Of a stretch of 64,000 bases of DNA, positions 1 through 6,570 are shown piece after piece. The DNA comes from Pseudonocardia endophytica. GTDB lineage: Bacteria > Actinomycetota > Actinomycetes > Mycobacteriales > Pseudonocardiaceae. The stretch's first letter is position 1. Each line of letters begins with the position of its first letter. The stretch lies in assembly GCF_004339565.1 (NCBI RefSeq), contig NZ_SMFZ01000001.1, positions 868,001 to 932,000 of the forward strand, in the 5' to 3' direction. The notes beneath the pieces are model-generated. The model searched no databases, was not told where the DNA came from, and was given only the letters and a program-made list of their open reading frames with translations. The position numbers and the translations under genes are program-made.

Positions 1-1666
1 CGGAATCCGCCGCCATCGCGGTCAGCTCGGCGGGCACCGGCAGGATCCAGCGCGGGTCCACGACGGTCACGTCGACGCCCTGGTCGGCCAGCCGCCGGGC
101 CACGGCGACGCCGAGCTCGCCGAACGCGCCGACGCACGCCAGCAGCACCTGCGAACGGCCGTCCTGTGGCTCGTGCAGCACGTCCACCGGGCCGACACGG
201 CGCACCGCGGGCACCGAGGCGATCACCGAGCCCTTCGGGTAGCGCAGCGCCGTCGGACCGTCGGAGACGGCGACGGCCTCGGCCAGCTCCTCGCGCATCG
301 TCTCCTCGTCGCGCGGCGCGGCGACGCGCAGGCCGGGCACCATGCCGAGGATCGACAGGTCCCACATCCCGTTGTGCGACGGGCCGTCGTTGCCGGTCAC
401 GCCGGAGCGGTCCAGCACCAGCGTGACGGCCTCGCGGTGCAGGCCGACGTCCATCAGCAGCTGGTCGAACGCACGGTTGAGGAACGTCGAGTACAGCGCC
501 ACGACCGGGTGCAACCCGCCACGGGCGAGGCCGGCCGCCGAGGCCAGCGCGTGCTGCTCGGCGATCCCGACGTCGATCACCCGGTCCGGGTGGGCGCGGG
601 AGAACGGCTCCAGCCCGACCGGCCCGAGCATCGCCGCCGTGATCGCGACGACGTCCGCGCGCCGGTTCCCGAGCTCGACCATCTCCTCGGCGAACACGTC
701 GGTCCAGCCGGTCGACGGGGCCTTCGTCGGGGCGCCGGTCTCCGGGTCGAACGCCCCGGGGCCGTGCATCTGGTCGGCCTCGTCGTTCTCCGCGGGCGGG
801 TAGCCGTGCCCCTTCTTCGTCACCGCGTGCACGATCACCGGCCCGCCGAACCGCTTGGCCCGCGCGAGCGCCGACTCCATGGCCGCGACGTCGTGCCCGT
901 CGACCGGTCCGAAGTACTTGAGCCCCAGGTCGGAGAACAGCTCCTGCGGGCTGACGGCGTCCTTGACGCCCACCTTGAGCGCGTGCAGGCCGGCGTAGAG
1001 CGCGTGCCCGACGACCGGGGTGCCACGCAGCGTGTGCTTGCCGGCCTCGAGCACCTTCTCGTAGCCGGGCTGCAGGCGCAGCGACGCGAGCCGGTCGGCC
1101 AGCCCGCCGATCGTCGGGGAGTAGGAGCGGCCGTTGTCGTTGACGACGATCACGACGTTGCGGTCCTGGGCGGCCGCGATGTTGTTCAGCGCCTCCCACG
1201 CCATGCCGCCGGTCAGCGCGCCGTCCCCGATCACGGCGACGACGTGCCGGTTCCGACCGGTCAGCGACTGGGCGCGGGCGATGCCGTCGGCCCAGGACAG
1301 CGACGACGACGCGTGGCTGGACTCGACGTGGTCGTGCTCGCTCTCGGCGCGGCTCGGGTAGCCGGACAGCCCGCCGGTCTTCTTCAGCTCGTCCCAGCCG
1401 GTGTGCCGTCCGGTGAGCAGCTTGTGCACGTACGCCTGGTGGCCGGTGTCCCAGATCAGGGTGTCCCGCGGCGAGTCGAACACACGGTGCAGAGCGATGG
1501 TCAGCTCGACCACCCCGAGGTTCGGGCCGAGATGGCCACCGGTCCGGGACACCGCCCTGATCAGGAAGCCGCGGATCTCCGCAGCCAGCTTGTCGATCTC
1601 GGCACGGTCGAGGCCGCGCAGGTCGGCCGGACGCCGGACGGCCGCCAGGCCGCGGGTCGTGGACAC
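1..1666 (-). CDS. dxs: 1-deoxy-D-xylulose-5-phosphate synthase, 5' part (runs off the window)
   Basis: DXS condenses pyruvate and glyceraldehyde 3-phosphate in a thiamine-diphosphate-dependent reaction, the first step of the MEP isoprenoid pathway, in the cytoplasm. The 555 codons present cover most of a protein usually near 640 residues; the C-terminal end lies beyond base 1. Visible are the early substrate motif [15 protein letters not shown], the ThDP motif [16 protein letters not shown] ending in VNDN, and the second-domain start DVFAEEM with AMLGP and [10 protein letters not shown] chose the GTG at 1666 because GAGGAG lies 7 bases before it and the protein then starts MSTTRG. Upstream on the same strand lie a hairpin and three micro-ORFs, so dxs may share or follow their transcript. 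Confidence 0.96.
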
Positions 1667-1770
1667 GGATCGCCTCCTCACCGCCGGCGCCGCCGCAGGG
1701 CCTGCCGGCTCGCTGTCGGGCCCGGTCCCACTCTACGGAGCGGCCGCGTGGCGCGACGGGGAGTCCACCC

Positions 1771-1806
1771 GCACGGAGGTGACCGCAGTCGGTCACCTCC
1801 GTGCGC
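1771..1806 (-). terminator. Perfect 16-bp stem hairpin between the micro-ORF trio and dxs
   Basis: The arms CGCACGGAGGTGACCG and CGGTCACCTCCGTGCG are exact reverse complements separated by CAGT. The hairpin lies 32 bases past the stop of the last micro-ORF and about 105 bases before the dxs start. No U-tract follows, as is common in actinobacterial terminators. It could end the micro-ORF transcript or attenuate read-through into dxs. Confidence 0.7.
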
Positions 1807-1837
1807 GGAGGCGTAGTGGTAGGGGTGGTGGGCGTCG

Positions 1838-1858
1838 TCACCAGGTCCAGTTGCGCAC
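1838..1858 (-). CDS. Micro-ORF C: hexapeptide MRNWTW, third of a tandem trio
   Basis: This is a six-codon ORF, GTG CGC AAC TGG ACC TGG followed by TGA. AAAGGAGA at 1864-1871 lies 5 bases before the GTG, an excellent Shine-Dalgarno. The coding bases are identical to the copies at 1903 and 1968, while the spacers between copies differ. Starts of successive copies are exactly 65 bases apart, so each copy is in a different frame. A longer reading is possible from a GTG overlapping the stop of micro-ORF B (22 residues), but the local Shine-Dalgarno points to the short form. Function unknown; it could be a peptide, a minimal RiPP precursor or a regulatory translated leader. Confidence 0.6.
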   Translation of the reverse strand: MRNWTW

Positions 1859-1902
1859 GACGATCTCCTTTCGAGGTCGCGATCTCCGAGGTCGTGGTGC
1901 GG

Positions 1903-1923
1903 TCACCAGGTCCAGTTGCGCAC
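1903..1923 (-). CDS. Micro-ORF B: hexapeptide MRNWTW, second of a tandem trio
   Basis: GTG CGC AAC TGG ACC TGG TGA, preceded by AAGGAGA at 1928-1934. The coding bases match micro-ORFs A and C exactly. The reading frame is open upstream to an ATG at 2037 (44 residues ending in the same VRNWTW), but that ATG has no Shine-Dalgarno and the hexapeptide start has a strong one. It lies in the middle of a roughly 290-base transcription unit running from the -10 box at 2066-2071 to the hairpin at 1771-1806. Two of the six residues are Trp, which also allows a Trp-sensing role. Confidence 0.6.
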   Translation of the reverse strand: MRNWTW

Positions 1924-1967
1924 GTCGTCTCCTTCGTGTGATGTGGTCTCCGGACGGCATGATCGAA

Positions 1968-1988
1968 TTACCAGGTCCAGTTGCGCAC
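1968..1988 (-). CDS. Micro-ORF A: hexapeptide MRNWTW, first of a tandem trio
   Basis: GTG CGC AAC TGG ACC TGG TAA, with GGGGAGA at 1993-1999 as Shine-Dalgarno. The stop is TAA here and TGA in the other two copies, so the coding part is conserved while the stop and flanks vary. No in-frame ATG, GTG or TTG occurs between this GTG and the predicted transcription start near 2059, so the short ORF is the only normal reading on that transcript. Confidence 0.6.
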   Translation of the reverse strand: MRNWTW

Positions 1989-2065
1989 GGGCTCTCCCCT
2001 TTTCGATATCGGGACGCAGAGAAGGCCGGCCGACCATCGGATCGGCTGATCCCGGGTACGCGTAC

Positions 2066-2099
2066 ATTATAAATTTCGGCCCGGACGACCCATGGTCAA
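2066..2099 (-). promoter_or_regulatory. Promoter of the MRNWTW micro-ORF unit
   Basis: On the minus strand a perfect TATAAT lies at 2071-2066 inside a locally AT-rich stretch. TTGACC lies upstream at 2099-2094, but with a 22-base spacer that is longer than usual. A perfect -10 box is rare in DNA this GC-rich and predicts a strong start near 2059, about 70 bases before micro-ORF A. Confidence 0.55.
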
Positions 2100-2265
2100 A
2101 TCAACGGCCGTGACACCGATGGCCCAGAACGCGCGAGGATCGAATTCTCGTCGTTTTGACCACACGCGGTGAAACGCCATTGCTCCATCGGAGCCGGCCT
2201 CCGGTCGGACCCGGCTGGGATCCGTGACCGGCCGGGTGGACGGTCACGCCGAGCCACATCGCGGC

Positions 2266-2271
2266 TAGCAT
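2266..2271 (+). promoter_or_regulatory. Possible -10 box (TAGCAT) of the first diguanylate cyclase gene
   Basis: TAGCAT fits the actinobacterial TANNNT pattern and would give a leader of roughly 57 bases before the ATG at 2335. No convincing -35 box is seen. It is divergent from the micro-ORF promoter, about 200 bases away. Confidence 0.35.
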
Positions 2272-2334
2272 CTCGGTGAACCGCACCGCCGGGGCCGCGG
2301 TCGGCGACGGCGTGAGGAGGAGGGGCGCGCACCG

Positions 2335-3678
2335 ATGCAGTCCCCCCGAGCGTCGCTACGGCACGTCACCCGCTGGCCCGTGTGGGCGATACCTCCCCGT
2401 CTACTGCTCTCCGTCCTGGTCGTGGAGTTGCTCGCGATCGGTCTCGTCACCGCCGACGCGCTCAGCCTCGTGCCGGTGACCTGGACGGACGCCCAGGCCG
2501 GCCTGCTGCTGTGCGGGGCGGCGGTGCTGCACGTCGAGGCCGTGCTCGGGGTGGAGCGGATCCGGCGGGGATCCCAGGAGAGCCACCACGTCGACCTCAA
2601 CTCGGTCTGGACGTTCGCCGGGGCCCTGCTGCTGCCGCCCGTGCTCGCGTCGGCCGCCGTCGTGGTGATCTACGCGTACCTGTTCGCGAGGGTGCAGCGC
2701 CCGACCGGCATCCCGGCCTACAAGCAGGTCTACAGCGCCGCCACGGTCGTGATCGCCGTGCACGCGGCCGGGGTGGTCCTCCTGCTCACCGCGCCCGGCC
2801 AGCTCTACGGCACGGTCGGCGGCACGTTCGCCCTGCTGCTGGCGCTGCTCGCGTACACGGTCGTGAACACCTGCCTGGTGCTCGGCGTCGTCGCGATGGC
2901 CAGTCCGAACGTGCGGATCCTGCGTGTGCTCGGATCCGGCGACGAGGTGATCCTGGAGATCGCCACGCTGTCACTCGGCGCGCTCGTCGCGGCGGCACTG
3001 ACCACGACCACGCCGCTGGCCGTGTTGCTCGTCATACCGCCAATTCTTGTCCTGCACCGGACAATTCTGGTCAAGAAGCTCCAGGAACGCGCGGACACCG
3101 ACGCGAAGACGGGCCTGCTGAATTCCGCCGCGTGGCACTCGCAATCGCGGTCCGCCCTGCGTGCGGCGGAGCGGTCGGAAACCACGGCAGGCGTACTGGT
3201 CCTCGATCTCGACCATTTCAAGATTGTCAACGACCGGCACGGGCACCTCGCGGGCGACGAGGTTCTCCGAGTGGTCGCGAACACACTGCGCGAGGAAGTG
3301 CGCGATCACGATCTGGTCGGCCGGTTCGGCGGCGAGGAGTTCGTGGTGCTCCTCTCCCGGCTCGCCGACACGGACCAGACGCCGGAGGACGCCGCGGTCG
3401 AGGTCGGACGGATCGGCGACCGGATCCGGCGGCGCGTGCGCGAGCTGCGGGTCAGCTCCTCGGCCGTGGACGGCTCCGACGCGACGATCGAGGGCGTCAC
3501 GGTGTCCGTCGGGGGCGCCGTGTTCCCGAGCGACGGGCACTCGCTCACGACGCTCGTCGCCACGGCCGACGCCGCCCTCTACGCGGCCAAGCGGGCCGGG
3601 CGGGACACCGTGCGCGTCGGCCCGGACCTGGCCCGCAGTCGCGACGAGAGCCCTGGCGGCGACCCGCTGGCCGGCTGA
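2335..3678 (+). CDS. Membrane-bound diguanylate cyclase (GGDEF domain), copy 1
   Basis: A 447-residue protein predicted to make cyclic di-GMP from two GTP. Residues about 15-245 form several hydrophobic segments without a recognised sensor domain. Residues about 255-430 are a GGDEF domain that starts DTDAKTGLLN, continues LDLDHFKIVND and carries GGEEF at 332-336. RDHD at 323-326, five residues before GGEEF, matches the RxxD inhibitory site. There is no EAL domain. The ATG is preceded by GAGGAGGAGG. It is convergent, with a 9-base gap, with a paralogue that has the same architecture, and divergent from the MRNWTW micro-ORFs. The shared layout of both copies suggests an inverted duplication. 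Confidence 0.93.
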   Translation: MQSPRASLRHVTRWPVWAIPPRLLLSVLVVELLAIGLVTADALSLVPVTWTDAQAGLLLCGAAVLHVEAVLGVERIRRGSQESHHVDLNSVWTFAGALLLPPVLASAAVVVIYAYLFARVQRPTGIPAYKQVYSAATVVIAVHAAGVVLLLTAPGQLYGTVGGTFALLLALLAYTVVNTCLVLGVVAMASPNVRILRVLGSGDEVILEIATLSLGALVAAALTTTTPLAVLLVIPPILVLHRTILVKKLQERADTDAKTGLLNSAAWHSQSRSALRAAERSETTAGVLVLDLDHFKIVNDRHGHLAGDEVLRVVANTLREEVRDHDLVGRFGGEEFVVLLSRLADTDQTPEDAAVEVGRIGDRIRRRVRELRVSSSAVDGSDATIEGVTVSVGGAVFPSDGHSLTTLVATADAALYAAKRAGRDTVRVGPDLARSRDESPGGDPLAG

Positions 3679-3687
3679 GCGGACGCG

Positions 3688-5001
3688 TCAGGGGGCAGGG
3701 CGGCCGGGGCGGCCGATCCGGACCTGGTTCCGGCCCGCCCTCTTGGCCGCGTACAGCGCGAAGTCCGCGACCTGCATCAGCTCGTCGACCGTGTGGCCGT
3801 CGCTCTCGGACAGCGCCGCTCCGACCGACACGCTGAGGTCACCGATCCGCAGCGGGCCCGCCGGGGTGTCGATCTCCACCTCGAGCATCCGCACGGTGCG
3901 CCGGATCCGTTCCGCGGCCGCGTGCGACTGCACCCGCCCGGCCTCGGCGAGCGGGAGGCCGCCGAGCAGTACGACGAACTCCTCGCCGCCGAACCGGCCG
4001 ACGAGGTCCCCGTCGCGGACCTCGCGGAGCAACGTGCCCGCCACCGCGCTGAGGACCTCGTCCCCCGCCAGGTGGCCGTGGTTGTCGTTGACGGTCTTGA
4101 AGTGGTCGAGGTCGAGGATCAGGACGGCCACCGACGTCCGCGTCCGCGCGGCCCGCTGCAGCGCCCGGTTCGCCCTCCCCCGCCACGCCGACGACGTCAG
4201 CAGCCCGGTCTTGGCGTCGGTGTCCGCCCGCTCCTCGAGCTGGCGGATCAGCACGGCGCGGTGCAGCACGAGCAGCGGTGGGAGCACGAGCAGGACGAGC
4301 GCGGGCTGCCGGAGCACGACGACCGACGCCAGCACGCCGAGGCACAGCGTCGCGCCCTCCAGGATGTGGTCGTCCCAGTCCCCGACCAGATCGGACCAGC
4401 TCGTACGGCGGTCCGCCGTCAGCCCCAGCGCCAGCGTCACGAGCAACTGGTTCACCAGCACGTAGACGACCATCGCCAGCGCGAGCATCCCGTAGTCGCG
4501 CAGGGCCGTCAGGCGCTCCGGGTCGACGAGCGCGCCCGCGGCCTGGCAGGCCAGCACGACCGTCGCCGTCGTGTAGACGTGCCGGTACAGCGGCGCGCCG
4601 GCGGGCCGCCACACGCGCGCCCACAGGTGCGCGTAGATGACGACCACCACGAGGGACGCCGCGGCCGGCGGGAGCAGGACCGCCCCGGCGAACGTCCAGA
4701 CGGAGCTGAGGTCGAAGTACGAGCTGTGCGCGACCCGGCGCCGGACCCGCTCGATGCCGGTGGCGAGCTCGGTGTGCACCACACCGAGGAACGCCAGCCC
4801 GAGCGCGCCGAGCCAGACCGCGGCCGCCGGCGGTTCCGTGACGAGCCCGACGACGGACAGGCCGGCCGCCGCCAGCTCGACCACGGAGAGCAACGCGATG
4901 ATCCGGCCGGGCTGCGACCACACCGGCCAGCTGCGCGGGCCGCGCCGGCGCCGGGGGATCACCGGGGTGCCGTCGTCGCCGGTCGTCGGCGTGTCGGTCA
5001 C
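3688..5001 (-). CDS. Membrane-bound diguanylate cyclase (GGDEF domain), copy 2
   Basis: A 437-residue paralogue of the neighbouring plus-strand cyclase. Its N-terminal hydrophobic region shares SSVWTFAGAVLLPP and VVVIYAHL with that gene, and the GGDEF domain has DTDAKTGLL, LDLDHFKTVND, the RxxD inhibitory site RDGD at 329-332 and GGEEF at 338-342, so it should be active and product-inhibited. I chose GTG at 5001 (MTDTPTTGDD) because GGAGAG lies just before it; a TTG at 5025 would add eight residues. The gene is divergent from the two MRNRGW micro-ORFs, mirroring the arrangement at copy 1. Confidence 0.92.
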   Translation of the reverse strand: MTDTPTTGDDGTPVIPRRRRGPRSWPVWSQPGRIIALLSVVELAAAGLSVVGLVTEPPAAAVWLGALGLAFLGVVHTELATGIERVRRRVAHSSYFDLSSVWTFAGAVLLPPAAASLVVVVIYAHLWARVWRPAGAPLYRHVYTTATVVLACQAAGALVDPERLTALRDYGMLALAMVVYVLVNQLLVTLALGLTADRRTSWSDLVGDWDDHILEGATLCLGVLASVVVLRQPALVLLVLPPLLVLHRAVLIRQLEERADTDAKTGLLTSSAWRGRANRALQRAARTRTSVAVLILDLDHFKTVNDNHGHLAGDEVLSAVAGTLLREVRDGDLVGRFGGEEFVVLLGGLPLAEAGRVQSHAAAERIRRTVRMLEVEIDTPAGPLRIGDLSVSVGAALSESDGHTVDELMQVADFALYAAKRAGRNQVRIGRPGRPAP

Positions 5002-5048
5002 CTGAGTCTCTCCGTGACGATGCAACTACCATCTGTCACACCACCGGG

Positions 5049-5054
5049 TACAAT
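5049..5054 (+). promoter_or_regulatory. -10 box of the MRNRGW micro-ORF pair
   Basis: TACAAT matches the consensus at five of six positions within an AT-rich island (TACAATAGTAAA). It predicts a start near 5061, about 40 bases before the first micro-ORF. No clear -35 box is visible. The promoter is divergent from the second diguanylate cyclase gene. Confidence 0.5.
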
Positions 5055-5100
5055 AGTAAACGCTCGATCGCTCCGCGTGACCGGAGAGTGAGGTGTCGTC

Positions 5101-5121
5101 GTGCGCAATCGCGGCTGGTGA
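5101..5121 (+). CDS. Micro-ORF 1: hexapeptide MRNRGW, first of a tandem pair
   Basis: GTG CGC AAT CGC GGC TGG TGA. GAGGTG at 5090-5095 lies 5 bases before the GTG. An in-frame TGA at 5089-5091 closes the frame immediately upstream, so the ORF cannot be longer. The peptide shares MRN at the start and Trp at the end with the MRNWTW trio on the other side of the cyclase pair. Compared with its neighbour at 5164 it has two base changes, both synonymous (AAT/AAC for Asn, CGC/CGA for Arg), which points to selection on the peptide. Confidence 0.6.
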   Translation: MRNRGW

Positions 5122-5163
5122 GAACCGTGCCTGAAACCCGACGTCCGGAACGGAGGTGTCGCC

Positions 5164-5184
5164 GTGCGCAACCGAGGCTGGTGA
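5164..5184 (+). CDS. Micro-ORF 2: hexapeptide MRNRGW, second of a tandem pair
   Basis: GTG CGC AAC CGA GGC TGG TGA with GGAGGTG at 5152-5158 as Shine-Dalgarno. It is 63 bases after micro-ORF 1 and in the same frame, with the stop of micro-ORF 1 and no start codon in between, so only the six-residue reading is possible. Downstream on this strand there is no gene until 7697; the next sequence is the 3' end of an opposite-strand MFS gene (stop at 5195). It therefore cannot be a leader peptide for a downstream gene. Confidence 0.6.
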   Translation: MRNRGW

Positions 5185-5194
5185 CCCGACCCTG

Positions 5195-6466
5195 TCACGC
5201 CGGTACACCGCTCGCCGGAGGAGCGGACGTCCCCGTGGCCCCACGCGTCCGTGCCAGGAGCAGGACGCCACACGCGAGCAGCAGACCACCCGCGCCGCAG
5301 GCGGCGAGCGCGACCGGCGGGCTCGTGCGTTCCGCGACGAGTCCGCCCAGCAGGATCGCGACGCCCTGTGCCGCGACCAGGCCGGACGCGGCCACGCCGG
5401 TCGCGGTTCCGCGGACGTCGGCGGGGGTGGCCCGCACGAACCCGGCCTGCGCCTGGACGAGTGCGGCCGTCGCGCACGCGCCGGACACGGCCCACAGCGC
5501 GAACGAGGCCGGGAGCGTCGCGGTCAGCGGCGCGACCAGCAACGGCACCGCGGCCCCTACGGCGAGCGGCACGAGCGCCCGGTCCCGCCACGCGACCGGG
5601 ACGAGCCGGGCGAACAGCAGCGCCCCGACGACGCTACCGACCGGGTCGGCGGACATCAGGATCCCGGTTCCGACCGCGCCCACCCCGATGGCCTGCGCGT
5701 ACGACGCGGCCAGCGCCTCGGGCAGCACGAAGATCCCGACGAGCCACGCGATGCAGACGAGGTAGCGCCTGCGCGGATGGCGCAGGACGAGCCGGAGCCC
5801 TGCCCGCACGCCGTGCGCGCCGGCCGTCGGGGAACCGGATGCGGGCCCGGCGTCCGCGCGCGACGGCTCGCCGCGCCGCACGAGCGTGCCGACGACGAGC
5901 GCCGACAGGCCGAACGTCGCGGCGTCGATCAGCAGCGCGGCGGACGGGGTGAGCACGGCGACGACGAGCCCGCCGACCGCGAACCCGGCCACCTGGGCCA
6001 CCTGCCCGGTGATCTGGCGGACGGCGATCCCGCGCTGCAGCAGGTCGCCGTCGAGCACGTCCGGCAGCAGGGCGCCCTGCGCCGCCGTGTGCGGGGCACC
6101 GGCCAGCACGACGAGCACGACGAGCGTCGCGAGCACCCACAGCGGGACGCCGGGGACGGCCATCACGGCGACCATGCCGAGCCGCACCAGGTCCGCGACC
6201 ACCATGACGGTGCGCCGCGGGAACCGGTCGGCCAGCGGGCCCAGCAGCAGCCCGCCGGCCAGAGCGGGGAGGAAGGTGAGCGCGTAGACCACGGCCGACC
6301 ATGCCGGTGACCCGGTGCGCTGCAGGACGACGACGGTCAGCGCGAGCCGCGCGAGCTGGTCGCCCGCCACCGAGAGGACCTCCGCGAACCAGAGTGCGCG
6401 GAACTCCGCCACCCGGAACACCGCGGTCAGACGCGGAGAGCCGGTCCCCTGCTGGACGCGCCCCAT
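5195..6466 (-). CDS. MFS exporter (EntS/MFS_3-like)
   Basis: A membrane transporter of the major facilitator superfamily, about 423 residues with roughly 12 hydrophobic segments. The N-terminal FRVAEFRALWFAEVLSVAGD and the loop LADRFPRRTVMVVADLVRLG match the branch that contains enterobactin and macrolide exporters; the substrate is unknown. I chose ATG 6466 because TACCCT lies 7 bases before it, fitting a leaderless start, and because the protein then begins close to the first membrane segment. An ATG at 6571 overlaps the stop of the upstream phosphatase gene and would add 35 Arg- and Pro-rich residues; it cannot be excluded. Confidence 0.88.
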   Translation of the reverse strand: MGRVQQGTGSPRLTAVFRVAEFRALWFAEVLSVAGDQLARLALTVVVLQRTGSPAWSAVVYALTFLPALAGGLLLGPLADRFPRRTVMVVADLVRLGMVAVMAVPGVPLWVLATLVVLVVLAGAPHTAAQGALLPDVLDGDLLQRGIAVRQITGQVAQVAGFAVGGLVVAVLTPSAALLIDAATFGLSALVVGTLVRRGEPSRADAGPASGSPTAGAHGVRAGLRLVLRHPRRRYLVCIAWLVGIFVLPEALAASYAQAIGVGAVGTGILMSADPVGSVVGALLFARLVPVAWRDRALVPLAVGAAVPLLVAPLTATLPASFALWAVSGACATAALVQAQAGFVRATPADVRGTATGVAASGLVAAQGVAILLGGLVAERTSPPVALAACGAGGLLLACGVLLLARTRGATGTSAPPASGVPA

Positions 6467-6570
6467 CCTACCGAGGGTAGGTACTCGGGCGCGGAACGTC
6501 ATGTCCGGCGGCCGGACGGTCGGACCAACGGGCTCCCGGCGGCGGCGAGCGGGTGCGTCCGTCGAGGTCA

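Follow-up and report, generated by a model that had tools for sequence, protein, structure and literature searches.

In a 64,000-nucleotide stretch of the genome of Pseudonocardia endophytica (contig NZ_SMFZ01000001.1, positions 868,001 to 932,000; hereafter the window), two tandem arrays of six-codon micro-genes each diverge from a gene for a membrane-bound diguanylate cyclase, the predicted source of cyclic di-GMP (c-di-GMP). We propose that the peptide of each array is, with good probability, the dedicated ligand of the cyclase that diverges from it and sets the synthesis of c-di-GMP. The sequences show tandem short open reading frames (ORFs), linkage of these ORFs to the cyclase, selection at the level of the peptide, co-variation of the peptide with the sensor domain of the enzyme, and an intact GGEEF motif and I-site.

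The window holds three copies of VRNWTW on the minus strand and two of VRNRGW on the plus strand (Table 1), in agreement with a preliminary description of this DNA, and all five start with GTG and carry a Shine-Dalgarno-like purine run just 5' of it. The pattern RTGCGNAAYNNNNNNTGGTRR has five matches in the 7.57 Mb genome, all of them the MRNxxW micro-genes of the window, and the reversed control pattern has none. The two cyclases, DGC1 and DGC2, are convergent genes whose proteins are 49% identical, so the inverted duplication proposed earlier for this region is borne out at the protein level. Both match the GGDEF family (PF00990; E 5.7e-36 and 2.6e-37) and retain GGEEF together with an RxxD I-site, and c-di-GMP synthesis is predicted for both; GGEEF is invariant across 29 aligned proteins and agrees with the active-site signature GG[DE]EF of diguanylate cyclases. 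For the domain ahead of GGDEF, here called the sensor domain, Pfam gave no family over its cut-off in either protein.

This arrangement recurs in related genomes. All 20 chosen Pseudonocardia loci, picked from among the matches listed with TGG-ending and isolated single matches (e.g. G004:C94, G021:C130) left aside, have a divergent cyclase homologue, cut by transposases in one of them. A scan of 84,980 species genomes for two copies 30–60 bases apart returned 30 tandem stretches, all labelled Pseudonocardia or Pseudonocardiales, and a DGC1/DGC2 homologue is transcribed away from the array in 29 of these; the 30th (L078) starts inside an array at the end of its locus and, since L075 from the same species has its array at a contig end, the two are probably one broken locus. 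The pairing that the preliminary description expected in relatives, tandem MRNxxW genes beside orthologous cyclases, is thus what related genomes contain. Its claim that array and cyclase form one module, duplicated and then diverged, is supported by this recurrence and by two other Pseudonocardia genomes (L040, L041) with the mirrored layout and both arrays, while the functional part of the claim draws support from the co-variation of peptide and sensor reported below. Arrays in the genus reach 18 matching copies, e.g. in P. dioxanivorans CB1190; the pattern occurs in 49 of 62 genomes, an upper bound because TGG was allowed as last codon, and in tandem in five of 200 genomes of the family, all Pseudonocardia. 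One Pseudonocardia locus (L043:1832-5463, genome G008) has an eight-copy array with a broken partner, the cyclase being split by a DDE transposase gene, with an ISL3 transposase gene between split cyclase and array. In L048, L050 and L053, a lone array is flanked on one side by a tandem row of four paralogous cyclases of the family.

Selection acts on the encoded peptide. Across 36 arrays (263 units, chosen by Shine-Dalgarno sequence and ORF length and not by codon content), differences from the commonest unit of the array comprise 108 synonymous versus 30 non-synonymous changes, with 19 of the latter in codon 2, and the same letters read one base later or earlier give synonymous/non-synonymous counts of 6/150 and 15/127. 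Within one array of genome G010, AGC and TCC serine codons are mixed.

Peptide cores track the sensor domain and not the GGDEF domain. Among 88 non-redundant cyclases, obtained from 102 by dropping the doubtful cores of L138, L206 and L225 (leaving 99) and then near-identical sensors, the partial correlation of peptide-core with sensor distance was 0.364 with GGDEF distance held constant (0 of 2000 permutations), and that with GGDEF distance was -0.005 with sensor distance held constant. The core was defined by rule: where a Trp stands near the end, that Trp and the three residues before it, and otherwise the last four residues. This rule misplaces some cores (KTRD cases). Two sensor positions stand out: residue 87 is Asp in 51 of 54 cyclases whose peptides have a neutral third core residue and is not Asp in 32 of 34 with an acidic one, and Arg occupies position 174 in 15 of the 18 with an acidic first core residue and in none of the 70 others. 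Two loci without an automatic call, L116 and L213, were read as having Asp-first cores, and both carry Arg174; L226, read as Glu-first, has Trp174. Among 60 new loci, of which 32 had a peptide call and 28 had none, Asp87 was absent in all 16 with an acidic third core residue and present in 11 of the 16 others, and Arg or Gln at residue 174 was found in none of the 26 without an acidic-first core. L293 carries Arg174, predicting a peptide with an acidic core, and no micro-ORF was found upstream of it. Since the peptides evolve in step with the sensor, they are likely the signals to which the enzyme responds.

The core of the sensor domain likely has a fold like that of the S-components of energy-coupling factor (ECF) transporters; no chain in the PDB matched it by sequence at E 0.01. 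It differs from S-components such as RibU, BioY and ThiT in being fused to GGDEF, in having two extra helices and in an orientation in the membrane that appears to be inverted. A Pfam relative is MASE9 (PF20972): at E <= 0.01 it matches 14 of the 128 sensor domains, with 3.2e-5 as the best value; DGC2 scores 15.1 bits against a cut-off of 24.3, for DGC1 no match is listed, and the window's own genome has no MASE9 match. MASE9, a domain for which no ligand is known to us, is thus a remote relative of the sensor family.

The system extends beyond MRNxxW and beyond Pseudonocardia. Within the genus Pseudonocardia, 61 of 62 genomes encode the sensor domain. A search of 150 Pseudonocardiaceae genomes found it in 121, with as many as 10 matches in a single genome, and a sample of 296 genomes across the class found it in 48; in a phylum-wide sample of 296 genomes it occurred in one, the window's own. 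Other genera of the Pseudonocardiaceae have cores of the SWDW, NKDW, SKDL, NRDN, SRDN and DKIW types in two or more copies, and GVEY, GRED, NRDS and others in single copies. A further group, likely Jiangellaceae because the cyclase of its locus L120 best matches named Jiangella proteins, has micro-genes for MRDNTWT, MRDTTWS, MRDNNWN and MRANSWD in runs of up to 13. Units of several arrays outside Pseudonocardia share a constant core and differ in their first residue or first two residues; those of the Jiangella-like arrays differ in the last. In a panel of 60 loci, which like the 60 new loci were picked by hand and not at random from the sensor-domain matches in the genus, family and class genomes, with the upstream DNA not viewed beforehand, at least one ORF of 5–8 codons with a Shine-Dalgarno sequence lies on the divergent strand of 38 of 59 cyclases, versus four on the other strand and a mean of 3.7 in shuffles; a repeated core occurs in 17 of the 59, versus none on the other strand and 0.08 in shuffles.

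Some lineages encode the core as in-frame repeats. These include SEWH four times in L199, RPNDW three times in L209, RPSEWT twice in L211, REIRWT twice in L226, DSHW four times plus two variants in L213 and GRPADWR three times in one precursor in L273; L116 has a 15-codon ORF that holds RDTNW twice and itself occurs in several copies. L292 has RPHEW once and the related RPNAG. At L199, L209, L211, L213, L226, L273 and L292 a single small precursor replaces the micro-gene array. Many of the repeats have an Arg close by, perhaps a processing mark. Arrays and repeat precursors seem to be alternative routes to multiple copies of one core.

In the mechanism that we propose, the array would be transcribed and translated and the peptide trimmed to its core, a step suggested by the in-frame repeat precursors and by variable end residues around a constant core. 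We predict that the core (about residues 3–6) is bound by the S-component-like sensor domain, presumably from the cytoplasmic face, given the charge of the loops and the depth of the co-varying residues, and the bound peptide would set c-di-GMP output as activator or inhibitor. The protein of a neighbouring major facilitator superfamily (MFS) gene may move the peptide across the membrane, in a pheromone loop or in the control of its internal level, whereas copy number would serve dose and different cores would keep paralogous cyclases apart. On balance we also favor, with rather less confidence, the general form of this proposal, in which barcode-like tetrapeptide cores, supplied by tandem arrays of 5–9 codon genes or by repeat precursors, reach cognate S-component-like cyclases throughout the system in Actinomycetes; each paralogue would have a core of its own and often an MFS gene as partner, with several insulated peptide-to-c-di-GMP channels per cell as the outcome.

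Two observations weigh against the proposal. Automatic calling found a peptide at 102 of 128 sensor-domain loci, and the other 26 cyclases had no call; on reading, a missed MRGQNW was seen in L207 and in-frame core repeats in six of the 26, and none was seen in 19. Moreover, the Arg174 rule held only partly in the new loci, where six acidic-first cases have Gln174.

A serious though less probable alternative is that the peptides are first of all cell-to-cell pheromones, which the MFS protein exports and the cyclase senses on the outer side, like other peptide quorum sensing. Outside Pseudonocardia, and among loci with at least 1,200 bases of flank, 49 of the 69 with a called micro-ORF have an MFS homologue (about 37–53% identical to the window's) in the flank, versus four of the 23 without a call (Fisher p 1.4e-5), and three of these four (L207, L209, L213) have a peptide on closer reading; the gene is also present in 16 of the 20 chosen Pseudonocardia loci, and is part of the usual neighborhood of the module. 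Export would further fit the below-cut-off resemblance that the window's MFS protein bears to EntS, an enterobactin exporter, and the processing that the repeat precursors suggest. A six-codon ORF, however, is too short for a signal sequence, 18 of the 20 most strongly co-varying sensor positions lie in the inferred cytoplasmic half, the outer loops are short, and 20 of the 69 loci have no MFS gene in the examined flank.

It is unlikely that the co-variation merely reflects the shared descent of neighboring genes, with the peptide acting elsewhere. Linked genes do share trees, and the plain correlation of core distance with GGDEF distance is 0.45, but the GGDEF half of the same gene keeps no residual correlation, and on a tree built from GGDEF only, sensor columns change together with the peptide more often than GGDEF columns do. 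On that tree, Asn/Asp87 tops 1838 column tests for core position 3 (four of six peptide changes, with five column changes) and Arg174 tops those for core position 1 (four of six, with four column changes); the same count is reached by other columns, including one in GGDEF, that change more often. On the combined tree residue 87 leads again (three of five) with two other columns tying, and Arg174 is not among the top rows; residue 87 changes four times there, three times on the branch of a peptide change and once just above one.

The micro-genes are very unlikely to be minimal precursors of a ribosomally synthesized and post-translationally modified peptide (RiPP), i.e. of a secreted metabolite, with the cyclase merely regulating. 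Such precursors exist with as few as five codons in the biarylitides, whose tiny gene (18 bp) evades automatic detection, as described in PMC13417212, many of our cores end in Trp, and a lysine/ornithine monooxygenase and a methyltransferase were found near L039 and L044, respectively, among the scanned neighbors. The dedicated P450 of the biarylitides is, however, absent beside the arrays within the window and from ten proteins of five other loci, copies here are often tandem, non-aromatic cores (NRDN, SKDL, TREG) occupy the same place, and the sensor co-varies with the core.

That the arrays act as regulatory RNA (attenuators, or sponges for ribosomes or proteins) with irrelevant peptides is the least credible reading: tandem repeats rich in Shine-Dalgarno sequences could serve as such a sponge, dxs lies 3' of array 1 on the same strand and is separated from it by a hairpin, and in RNRAW-type Pseudonocardia loci array and MFS gene are co-directional, the gene lying 3' (3 of 16 and 8 of 21 in two locus sets), but the synonymous excess is limited to the coding frame, single repeat precursors stand in for arrays, Rfam gave no match at gathering or permissive thresholds, both arrays diverge from their cyclases, and array 2 as well as 52 of 53 cases outside Pseudonocardia have array and MFS gene convergent, which leaves nothing to attenuate, so that attenuation does not appear to fit those loci. 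Tryptophan-based attenuation was rejected as a general explanation, as many cores have no Trp. A defense system was likewise rejected, PADLOC having matched none of three proteins.

The preliminary description had given each array a promoter with a near-perfect -10 box; TATAAT and TACAAT are indeed present by eye, but a consensus scan for promoters and terminators, which requires a -35 element as well, found nothing, so the promoters of both arrays are only plausible. Hexamers enriched 5' of the first micro-ORF in 88 loci are mainly Shine-Dalgarno sequences, besides CATACT (19 of 88) and GACAAT (12 of 88), which are possible parts of -10 elements, and no common operator was recognized by this enrichment. 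The hairpin 3' of array 1 has a folding energy of -41.4 kcal/mol (z -7.1) that none of 200 shuffles equaled. Upstream of the cyclase, L139-L143 (class family f18) share conserved DNA around ACACAATAGTTGCGGAGTGTGCG, perhaps a common operator or promoter; L139-L142 are without a clear micro-gene. Among the neighbors, dxs also follows the cyclases in L038, and the window further encodes His_Phos, HIT, PNPOx and alpha-amylase proteins.

Table 1. Features of the two modules and their immediate neighbors (positions in the window)
Feature	Position	Strand	Remarks
DGC1	2335-3678	+	membrane sensor domain and GGDEF domain (GGEEF, RxxD I-site); divergent from array 1
Sensor domain of DGC1	2365-3096	+	8 predicted transmembrane helices
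Codon of sensor residue D87 (DGC1)	2593-2595	+	co-varies with acidity of peptide residue 5 (third core residue)
Codon of sensor residue Y174 (DGC1)	2854-2856	+	co-varies with acidity of peptide residue 3 (first core residue)
DGC2	3688-5001	-	architecture as DGC1; divergent from array 2; start GTG 5001 more probable, by eye, than the alternative open start TTG 5025
Array 1, micro-gene 1	1968-1988	-	VRNWTW, stop TAA; motif match
Array 1, micro-gene 2	1903-1923	-	VRNWTW, stop TGA; motif match
Array 1, micro-gene 3	1838-1858	-	VRNWTW, stop TGA; motif match
Array 2, micro-gene 1	5101-5121	+	VRNRGW; motif match
Array 2, micro-gene 2	5164-5184	+	VRNRGW; motif match
Possible -10 box, array 1	2071-2066	-	TATAAT; by eye
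Possible -10 box, array 2	5049-5054	+	TACAAT; by eye
Hairpin (16 bp), likely terminator	1770-1805	-	between array 1 and dxs
dxs	1-1666	-	runs off the window; neighbor, not part of the module
MFS transporter	5195-6523	-	MFS_1, also MFS_3; convergent with array 2; start uncertain

Several copies of one signal per locus are familiar from precursors of the yeast alpha-factor type; here they are mostly separate ORFs, with an in-frame repeat precursor in some lineages. The pairing of a short-peptide gene with an adjoining receptor gene resembles the RRNPP systems (Rap-Phr, PlcR-PapR, AimR-AimP; PMC10075063), described for Bacillota with propeptides of 10–100 amino acids and tetratricopeptide repeat (TPR) receptors. 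Unlike these, the present loci combine ORFs of 5–9 codons, often in tandem, with a membrane diguanylate cyclase, and occur in Actinomycetes: the window ORFs have six codons, as opposed to propeptides of 10–100 residues that usually carry a secretion signal, and in place of a receptor of 250–500 residues with TPR repeats Pfam finds GGDEF alone, with predicted membrane helices. We found no description of such a system in the open-licence literature, which may miss subscription papers, and six literal peptide strings do not occur in it; in passages of a review of c-di-GMP sensing (PMC8846402), the word 'peptide' appears once (for periplasmic binding proteins) and 'pheromone' never. The pairs of peptide ligand and diguanylate cyclase are thus apparently an undescribed family.

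If the proposal is correct, a large family of orphan membrane diguanylate cyclases would gain its ligands, and the specificity code between peptide and sensor would be partly readable. Arrays of six-codon genes, which gene finders likely miss, would then be part of a signaling system. Genetically encoded peptide signaling would reach the Actinomycetes, whose typical signals are described as small, enzymatically made molecules (PMC10075063), and it would be linked to c-di-GMP, a messenger described as controlling development and antibiotic production in Streptomyces.

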